In this document: in pieces, positions 29,012 to 30,708 of the stretch | How the letters are laid out: every line of letters starts with the position of its first letter | Position numbering within the stretch: position 1 is the stretch's first letter | Virus record (IMG/VR): IMGVR_UViG_3300031603_000004 | Span: 1-54,848 of that record | Length of the DNA: 54,848 bases | Direction: 5' to 3' (one strand) | DNA from: a virus | Notes under the pieces: model-generated | The model's database searches: none | What the model was told of the DNA's origin: nothing | What the model saw: the letters and a program-made list of their open reading frames with translations, nothing else | Translations under genes and position numbers: made by a program

Positions 29012-29040
29012 ATTATATCACATTATTCTTTTTTTGTCAA
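29012..29040 (-). promoter_or_regulatory. Consensus early-type promoter P9
   Basis: TTGACA 29035-29040, TATAAT 29012-29017. Overlaps the LTKKE-stop end of the SNSSSSSF gene. Confidence 0.9.
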
Positions 29041-29559
29041 GAATTTTAAAAACTCATTATAATCCTTAAATTTACCTTTGATTTCTGCTGCTAAGATTTC
29101 TTGTGTCATATTATACTTCTTAAAGAAGTATAGAGTTGCTTCTCTATCTGCGATTATAGAGAAACTACAGAGAGGACACATTTCTGCAGGAATATTATAT
29201 CCGTTTTTTACATCATCATCATAATCTTCATCTTCAATTGCACTGTTAATTTCTTCATCAGTAAACTTCTCAGTAAAAATATTTTTTCTTTTATTTAAAT
29301 CAGCTTCTCTTTCGTCTCTATCTGCAATATTATAATCAGCAAAAACTTCATTTCCAGCTATAAGATTTCTTTTAATTTCCATTGGAAGATCATCAATTTC
29401 ACAAGCAGTATACTCTCTTAGAAAGGTATGACCATTTTCACATTCGTACATTTCTGCTTCTTCTAAAGATATATCCCTTCCGGAGACAACTTCTCCGGAA
29501 ATATCACAGATAAAACTACTGCTTGAACTATTACTTACAAATCCTATTCTCTTTTTCAT
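29023..29559 (-). CDS. SNSSSSSF-motif protein 1, zinc-binding type
   Basis: 178 residues. N-terminus MKKRIGFVSNSSSSSFI is shared with the next three genes; the rest is unrelated. Cysteines at CDISGEVV, YECENGH, ACEI and MCPLC suggest a zinc site. Ends LTKKE with the stop in promoter P9. Start overlaps the upstream stop by one base. Function unknown. Confidence 0.75.
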   Translation of the reverse strand: MKKRIGFVSNSSSSSFICDISGEVVSGRDISLEEAEMYECENGHTFLREYTACEIDDLPMEIKRNLIAGNEVFADYNIADRDEREADLNKRKNIFTEKFTDEEINSAIEDEDYDDDVKNGYNIPAEMCPLCSFSIIADREATLYFFKKYNMTQEILAAEIKGKFKDYNEFLKFLTKKE

Positions 29560-29966
29560 TAGTATCCACCATCTCCTTCGATTATTTTGACATCATCAAT
29601 AAACTTCAATGAACCAATTCCTTCGTTACAAATCATAGTTTCCAATCCACTTTCACCTTCGCTCGAAGCATTGCCTGTGTGAATGGTGTATCCAGCTTCA
29701 ATAGATTTTAGCATTTTAGTATAATTTTCATATATATATTCGTCAAAGTATTCTCCATCTTCTGTTAAATACTTATCCCAATCTTCTATTCCAAAGCAAT
29801 AATCTTCAAGAATATATTCTACTAATTCTTCTTTTGTAGAAATACTAGAAGAAATTAATTCGTCTAAATCTATTTCAACGAGTGCTCTGGTGGATTGATC
29901 TCCTTTAGTTGCAATAATAAAACTACTGCTTGAACTGTTACTCACAAAACCTATTCTCTTTTTCAT
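29559..29966 (-). CDS. SNSSSSSF-motif protein 2
   Basis: 135 residues from the ATG giving MKKRIGFVSNSSSSSFI (an ATG two codons earlier is possible). The body is acidic (DLDELISSSISTKEELVEYI) and unrelated to the other members. Confidence 0.72.
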   Translation of the reverse strand: MKKRIGFVSNSSSSSFIIATKGDQSTRALVEIDLDELISSSISTKEELVEYILEDYCFGIEDWDKYLTEDGEYFDEYIYENYTKMLKSIEAGYTIHTGNASSEGESGLETMICNEGIGSLKFIDDVKIIEGDGGY

Positions 29967-30274
29967 CCCCAAACTCCATCCCCAAACTCAATATCTATTT
30001 TATCAACACCAATGTCAATAAGAAATTCATACATATCAAAATTGTCCATTGTAGTATCCATTAAAATTTCTCTTTCATTTTCTGTTACATTCCAAGTATC
30101 ATCCCAGCCATATTTATGATCATAGCCTTCTGGAGTATTATTTGGACTGCTCATTCCTTTTGCTTCTTTTATGTGATTATATATCTTATTTATTTGCTTT
30201 TGAGATACATTATCTTTATTGATAATAAAAGAACTACTTGAACTATTACTTACAAATCCTATTCTCTTTTTCAT
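29963..30274 (-). CDS. SNSSSSSF-motif protein 3
   Basis: 103 residues with the same first 17 residues, then a Trp/Asp-rich body (GYDHKYGWDDTWNVTENERE). Overlaps both neighbours. Confidence 0.72.
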   Translation of the reverse strand: MKKRIGFVSNSSSSSFIINKDNVSQKQINKIYNHIKEAKGMSSPNNTPEGYDHKYGWDDTWNVTENEREILMDTTMDNFDMYEFLIDIGVDKIDIEFGDGVWG

Positions 30275-30708
30275 TAGTTGTAAATCTCCTCAGTTATTAT
30301 GCAAGGTTTTAGGTCATTAACTGTTAAAATCTCTCCAACTTCTTCAGCTATTCTTTTTTTGAACTCTCCGCCTGTCTCATCATCTCCAAGATCTTCAAAA
30401 GAAGAACCAACATAAATTATATCACATTCCGAATCAATTTCAGCGTCAAGACCTAGAGCTTCAACTAACTCGTAAAGCTCATAGTTTTTATCGAGTACTT
30501 CAAATGCTTCTTCAAAATCTTTGAAATCTCCTTCTTCATCTTTTTTATCAAGAAGCCGATGATCTTCATTGGCTTCTTTTAAGATCTTAGCTTTCTTTTC
30601 ATCTGATAAACTTAACCTATCAAAAAATTCACTTGTATCGAAAGCATACCCTAAGATACAAAAACTGCTTGATGAACTGTTACTAACAAACCCTGTTCTT
30701 ACTTTCAT
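30274..30708 (-). CDS. SNSSSSSF-motif protein 4
   Basis: 144 residues; N-terminus MKVRTGFVSNSSSSSFC, then a strongly acidic body. First of four tandem genes. The gene before it overlaps by 26 nt. Confidence 0.72.
   Translation of the reverse strand: MKVRTGFVSNSSSSSFCILGYAFDTSEFFDRLSLSDEKKAKILKEANEDHRLLDKKDEEGDFKDFEEAFEVLDKNYELYELVEALGLDAEIDSECDIIYVGSSFEDLGDDETGGEFKKRIAEEVGEILTVNDLKPCIITEEIYN

Follow-up and report, generated by a model that had tools for sequence, protein, structure and literature searches.

An N-terminal tag shared by unrelated phage proteins is paired with a radical SAM/SPASM enzyme and probably serves as its modification site

The closest described systems are the radical SAM maturases of the SuiB/SkfB type, whose substrates are gene-encoded and whose precursor gene usually adjoins that of the enzyme. 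SuiB, SkfB, CteB, PqqE and ChlB share with the enzyme reported here the N-terminal strands, the radical SAM barrel and the C-terminal Cys-rich part. Its presumed substrates, however, are many folded unrelated proteins with a 16-residue N-terminal tag, rather than the short leader-core precursors of the RiPP maturases. The anSME enzymes are likewise radical SAM/SPASM proteins, and oxidize one Ser or Cys of a protein client. Their recognition motif, of the [C/S]xPxR type, is internal and belongs to one enzyme family only, whereas the present tag is N-terminal and portable, and lacks such a motif. The prochlorosin-type combinatorial lanthipeptides also depend on one enzyme for many substrates with a common N-terminal part. 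In the prochlorosins, modification takes place in the variable part, and the common part is removed; here, the common part is the best candidate for the modification.

Some systems of phages and of bacterial immunity are also comparable. For example, FxsA/FxsB, described among the peptide-processing modules of bacterial conflict systems, likewise combine a radical SAM/SPASM enzyme and a small substrate protein beside NTPase immune receptors, and a C-terminal FxSxx peptide is cut by a metallopeptidase (PMC7159879). The motif reported here is N-terminal instead, and the phages have no recurrent peptidase. The T4 capsid-targeting sequence is also a portable N-terminal sequence on several small phage proteins; whereas the present tag has neither a prohead-protease site nor a late or virion context, and is paired with a radical SAM enzyme. 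The bacterial tag-enzyme pairs adjoin Avs2-like STAND NTPases and Avs1a-like metallo-beta-lactamases, which resemble the Avs1/Avs2 (AVAST) systems, whereas the phage version has no recurrent STAND NTPase companion. To our knowledge, a tag and a radical SAM gene lie outside the known Avs definition. None of the papers searched prints the tag sequence, and a virus-encoded modification system of this kind seems so far undescribed.

The sequence analysed is the virus record IMGVR_UViG_3300031603_000004, referred to as the window over its whole length of 54,848 bases. Four consecutive overlapping ORFs at 29023-30708 on the minus strand open with MK[KV]R[IT]GFVSNSSSSSF and then differ. The enzyme gene lies just upstream on the same strand. 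The features of this region are as follows, in the direction of transcription.

32466-33002, minus strand: N-terminal part of the enzyme up to CLGNCSF, then the N-half of an intein (TIGR01445, 2.5e-10; domain search)
32194-32490 (right limit approximate), minus strand: putative HNH-AP2 homing endonuclease remnant (..RIDNDKNYCPENVEWGNQ..YKGVWQ..) between the intein halves (read by eye)
31256-32191, minus strand: C-half of the intein (MKIKSIAKRVFNDTVYNFHCLPNENYFSEGILTHN), then the rest of the enzyme from the third Cys of CxxxCxxC (CYKSN...; domain search)
30683-31251, minus strand: between enzyme and tagged genes, two genes lacking the tag (63 aa, membrane-like; 126 aa)
30661-30708, minus strand: tag 1 (MKVRTGFVSNSSSSSF), N-terminus of the ORF at 30274-30708 (ORF list and core pattern search)
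30274-30708, minus strand: tagged protein 1, 144 aa; body family 2 (F-C/L/I-I-Y/L-G type, 37 members; body clustering)
30227-30274, minus strand: tag 2 (MKKRIGFVSNSSSSSF; ORF list and core pattern search)
29963-30274, minus strand: tagged protein 2, 103 aa; body family 0 (47 members; body clustering, structure model)
29919-29966, minus strand: tag 3 (MKKRIGFVSNSSSSSF; ORF list and core pattern search)
29559-29966, minus strand: tagged protein 3, 135 aa; body family 4 (31 members), which includes the tagged protein of the bacterial Avs-like operons (body clustering, hhalign)
29512-29559, minus strand: tag 4 (MKKRIGFVSNSSSSSF; ORF list and core pattern search)
29023-29559, minus strand: tagged protein 4, 178 aa; body family 1 (Cys/His zinc-ribbon-like, 39 members; body clustering)

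The first version of the tag occurs once in the window (88% identical to the query) and the second three times (100%). The core pattern gave four matches in the window, against none for the reversed-pattern control. Adjacent tagged ORFs overlap by 1-4 bases, which is consistent with one translationally coupled operon. The ORF call of the third gene runs out to a TTG; an ATG at 29966 restores the common spacing of the tag. After removal of the first 18 residues, the four bodies fell into four separate sequence clusters. The preliminary description of this region, four tandem genes sharing only the N-terminus, was therefore correct in both its coordinates and its claim. Moreover, the codons for identical residues differ at 2-6 of 13-15 positions between pairs of tags in the window, and these differences include AGY/TCN switches of serine.

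The tag was searched for with degenerate DNA encoding MKxxxGFV[S/T..]N(S/T/C..)5F. The pattern matched at least 119 IMG/VR stretches and 32 stretches of one-per-species prokaryote genomes, and the translated matches of this first set gave at least 310 distinct tagged proteins. Together with the loci found later, there were at least 446 non-redundant tagged proteins in 134 body clusters, 98 of which are singletons, among the matches listed; the suggestion that the shared N-terminus is a portable tag was thus borne out on a large scale. The carriers are phages and some bacterial and archaeal contigs, and the tag invariably forms the very beginning of the protein. Of the 329 core motifs in the first set, 327 are found at exactly five residues from a start codon, and the other two have a Met one residue earlier. 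The orthologous group phrog_7397 captures the tag itself (126 of 142 proteins). A tblastn search of annotated phages with the 20-residue tag or with two of the bodies gave no match, with the serine runs probably masked. Some tags were also seen on contigs binned as Asgard and Thermoplasmata archaea (L143, L152, L158 and L159), which are probably viral. Of the four assemblies, those of L143 and L152 contain the enzyme, and a search of the other two gave none.

Codon analysis indicated that the tag is under selection at the protein level. Both AGY and TCN codons are used at every serine position of the tag, and all six serine codons occur. Over all loci, the synonymous difference between tags of the same genome was 0.461, against 0.465 for independent draws from the tag codons of that genome, and an AGY/TCN switch was seen within genomes in 1,057 of 3,055 serine pairs. 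With codons this saturated, the tags can be neither recent duplicates nor a signal at the RNA or DNA level. A recent gene duplication, for which near-zero synonymous divergence was expected in the preliminary description, was therefore not found. A low-complexity accident was ruled out together with it, by the codon saturation and the fixed position; and an RNA- or DNA-level element, such as a translation signal or a recombination site, was ruled out by the use of all six serine codons. By contrast with the codons, the residues at positions 3, 5, 6 and 7 are common to the tags of one genome far above shuffles (z 7.2, 11.3, 3.5 and 4.6). For example, L240 has SLVSNSS in each of its four tags, and L225 has xHVSNSS in each of its four. 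This sharing despite saturated codons is expected if one genome-encoded partner acting in trans reads the tags; at positions 3 and 5 it could come partly from shared ancestry.

A search of the genomic neighbours of the tag, a check proposed in the preliminary description, showed the radical SAM/SPASM family to be its companion. All ORFs of at least 80 aa in the tag loci were clustered. Among the matches listed, this family occurred in 61 tag loci, representing 58 of 135 locus groups, and the next family in 7 groups. The enzyme was on the strand of the tag in 60 of these 61 loci, usually upstream and 16 times without a gap. The search was also performed with the enzyme only, which gave 80 viral loci. 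A tag was present within 6 kb in 64 of them (strict motif; none in the reversed-sequence control), and somewhere in the record in 12 of the other 16 (looser motif), giving 76 of 80; the four tagless records are fragments of 14.7-50 kb. The enzyme-selected loci (about 0.97 Mb) contain 279 core motifs, all on the strand of the enzyme. With no N-terminal condition imposed, 277 of these motifs lie seven residues past the start and two lie at eight. This one fixed distance, together with the four matches against none in the window, places the tag above chance.

The pairing was also examined in larger genomes. Among 50 large tagged viral records, 40 contain the enzyme (E<1e-100), including RB43, RB16 and KP15, where it lies about 20 kb from the tagged genes. 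It was not found in the other 10, whose contigs may be incomplete. It was present in 24 of 29 cellular assemblies of tag carriers and not found in five. In Lachnospiraceae, three of 150 genomes have the enzyme, and all three have an adjoining tag; two of these tags are of the D6 variant, which is outside the reach of the search patterns. The enzyme-tag pairing is well supported, and is about as strong as sequence evidence permits. The relation to the radical SAM enzyme had been called conceivable but unproven in the preliminary description; the pairing now stands from both search directions, and the modification itself is what we infer from it. It is unlikely, on the other hand, that the tag has some other job, such as localization, binding of a partner or the ribosome, or packaging, with the enzyme merely co-inherited. 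The 10 large records with no detected enzyme and the 20 kb separation in RB43-like phages would agree with such a job. However, the enzyme records that carry tags have hardly another gene family in common, RB16 and KP15 keep both the enzyme and the tag though these are unlinked, and amino-acid variants are held in common within genomes despite the saturated codons.

The enzyme has the CxxxCxxC motif of the radical SAM proteins (C80-x3-C84-x2-C87, conserved in A3/A5). The SPASM domain PF13186 was above the cut-off in L027, and four C-terminal cysteines (C268, C293, C311 and C356), as expected for auxiliary clusters, are invariant. No NCBIfam equivalog matched at its cut-off, and the family is unnamed. 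The structural model (pLDDT 96) aligned best with SuiB (Z 24.2), SkfB (22.2) and anSME with peptide (19.4), followed by CteB and PqqE; the closest folds all act on peptides or proteins. In the window, the enzyme gene (31256-33002) is fractured. The N-terminal part ends with the N-half of the intein just before the third Cys, and a separate gene opens with the 35-residue C-half, so that the motif reads CLGNCSF|CYKSN across the intein. The intein splits CxxxCxxC, and trans splicing would therefore be required for a working iron-sulphur site. A similar intein C-half opens L144, and in L015 and L115, too, the gene for the enzyme is divided into two parts.

The sequence logo of the tag was drawn from the enzyme-selected loci, using a profile tolerant of single changes so as to be unbiased. 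The most conserved positions were S12 (254 of 254), S11 (253), S9 (252), N10 (252), K2 (252) and R4 (251); position 14 is free, positions 13 and 15 are looser, and G6 and F7 are variable. Position 12 is never Thr or Cys. T9 occurs in many bacterial tags, and L11 in one. At position 6, Gly gives way to S in six tags, to C, V or R once each, and to D in L244 and L245, with the enzyme present; a glycyl radical site at G6 was ruled out by this variation. The anSME substrate motif [C/S]-x-[P/A]-x-R is also absent, as no P, A or R follows the serines of the tag. A lipoprotein or Sec signal does not suit a polar, serine-rich tag with no Cys in its consensus. In the model of tagged protein 2 of the window, residues 1-3 and 6-11 have a pLDDT below 50, whereas the body is confident and its first strand starts from residue 14. 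The tag looks flexible and accessible from these low values.

These features suggest that the tag is, with good probability, a portable site which the radical SAM/SPASM enzyme of the same operon or genome recognizes and modifies. As the many presumed clients of the enzyme have nothing else in common, modification of the tag is the simplest reading. We infer the chemistry and the purpose of the modification as follows. The enzyme would bind the flexible first 12 residues or so through the fixed K2, R4 and F7-V8, plus the free N-terminus, as the almost constant distance from the start suggests. The 5'-deoxyadenosyl radical would then alter one residue in the near-invariant N10-S11-S12 core, which is most likely the modified stretch. 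The residue that is modified, or positioned for catalysis, would most likely be Ser12 or Asn10, and Ser12, never Thr or Cys, is the strongest candidate. Candidate products include an oxidized, epimerized or cross-linked serine or asparagine. The product would stay on the folded client, so that several small acidic phage proteins would gain the same new chemical group, which would give them a common point of anchoring, binding or reaction.

Judged from sequence, the pairing would fit both a modification on the tag and a docking by the tag with modification elsewhere, and cannot separate the two. The tag could accordingly be only a leader that docks the enzyme, with the modified residues in the diverse bodies, as in the shared-leader RiPP families; we regard this as rather unlikely. 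One enzyme per genome for up to nine tagged genes, and a common N-terminus followed by diverse C-terminal parts, are indeed leader-like. However, the bodies are 75-300 aa long and belong to recurrent families, no residue is common to all of them, and one is modelled as folded. The shared residues are found only in the tag, and Ser11 and Ser12 are stricter than docking needs. The clients also differ from a RiPP precursor (short, with leader, core and protease) in this length and recurrence, and in having no recurrent protease in the phages.

The bacterial version of the pair has a different gene context, often an Avs-like (NLR-type) defence operon. In Lachnospiraceae, Veillonella, Sulfuricurvum and Verrucomicrobia, the enzyme adjoins just one tagged protein, of about 137 aa, and these loci also hold an untagged protein of about 140 aa and a STAND/NACHT-like NTPase. 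Some of the NTPases have a trypsin-like or SMEK N-terminus, and some loci add a metallo-beta-lactamase. The PADLOC Avs2 model matched with E values of 7e-12 to 5e-29, and the Avs1a-like metallo-beta-lactamase with 5e-52, alongside NACHT and trypsin/SMEK domains (L128, L131, L135, L146, L147 and L153); in L132, NACHT/SMEK was found by Pfam. L140 is also among the bacterial pairs in Avs-like operons. No STAND/NACHT NTPase was found in the stretch read for the pairs L129, L136, L141, L151 and L154-L156. With the tag removed, the bacterial tagged protein is homologous to phage body family 4 (hhalign 98%, E 8e-15, 119 columns), which indicates that the enzyme-tag pair is common to phages and to an NLR-type defence context. 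The untagged neighbour reached 50% by hhalign against the tagged protein. These bacterial sets are possibly an undescribed Avs subtype with a radical SAM enzyme.

The trypsin-like STAND protein of the bacterial operons, and the peptide natural products made by the closest structural relatives of the enzyme, might suggest that the tag gives rise to a small peptide which is cut off and released, as in a RiPP with an N-terminal core. Such a release is very unlikely, since no recurrent protease was found among the neighbours of the phage tag loci, and it would give no reason for keeping many conserved body families. Modification of a tag that stays on its protein extends to a broader reading, which is possible but tentative. 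The virus would encode a code in which one radical SAM enzyme puts the same new residue on the portable N-terminal tag of up to nine unrelated folded phage proteins; in bacteria, the same pair with a homologous tagged protein would act in NLR-like Avs operons, where the tag would be a contact point between phage and immunity.

The tagged proteins (at least 446) have a median length of 134, and their bodies are acidic (97% negative, median charge -11). The four body families of the window are large, with 47, 39, 37 and 31 members, so that many phages draw on a common set of tagged proteins. The tag is present in 405 of 420 ORFs of the body families, and the exceptions are mostly contig ends or near-tags; members without a tag do exist, as in L021 and L185. 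Tagged family-0 proteins were also seen in L021 and L090 (records G004 and G037), where the enzyme was not detected and an untagged paralogue lies beside the tagged one. Searches of the bodies against Pfam, NCBIfam and PADLOC gave isolated weak matches only; one member matches the STAS-like DUF4325 at 1e-9. The modelled tagged protein had no significant counterpart in a fold search.

In KP15, a relative of T4, the two tagged genes and the enzyme gene are in regions with annotated middle promoters. The tagged genes are placed among middle genes, and the baseplate genes are on the other strand. The clients therefore look like proteins of infection time rather than virion parts. It is hardly credible that the tag is a virion-targeting propeptide which the prohead protease removes, as with the T4 capsid-targeting sequence, even though the tag is a short conserved N-terminus on several small proteins of a T4-like phage and the RB43-type protein is labelled 'head-tail adaptor' in some records. 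The tag consensus has no acidic residue, and hence no cleavage site of the (L/I)xE type; the strand and the promoters in KP15 disfavour a virion role, and the tag also occurs in bacterial chromosomes.

Recognition and modification of the tag, if true, would be a new use of radical SAM chemistry, on a portable tag of mature, folded, unrelated proteins rather than on a leader-core peptide or a single client enzyme. There is a realistic chance that the tag-enzyme system is a new class beyond the radical SAM enzymes with gene-encoded substrates. A likely class of function would be given at once to hundreds of uncharacterized phage proteins and to an unnamed radical SAM family. The prediction is directly testable in the culturable T4 relatives RB16 and Lw1 (Escherichia coli) and KP15, and the link to Avs-like operons makes a role in the conflict between phage and host testable.

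Some minor observations concern annotated neighbours and names. The RB43-type tagged protein is called 'head-tail adaptor' in the Klebsiella phages H12, H13 and H33, apparently via phrog_132, which is probably a wrong transfer. The two tagged genes of KP15 (L161, KP15 60000-78000) flank a 739-aa VWA/MIDAS protein. A VWA gene is also located near the tags in L102, and the window contains a VWA-type protein (DUF7788/DUF2828) at 25690-27171.
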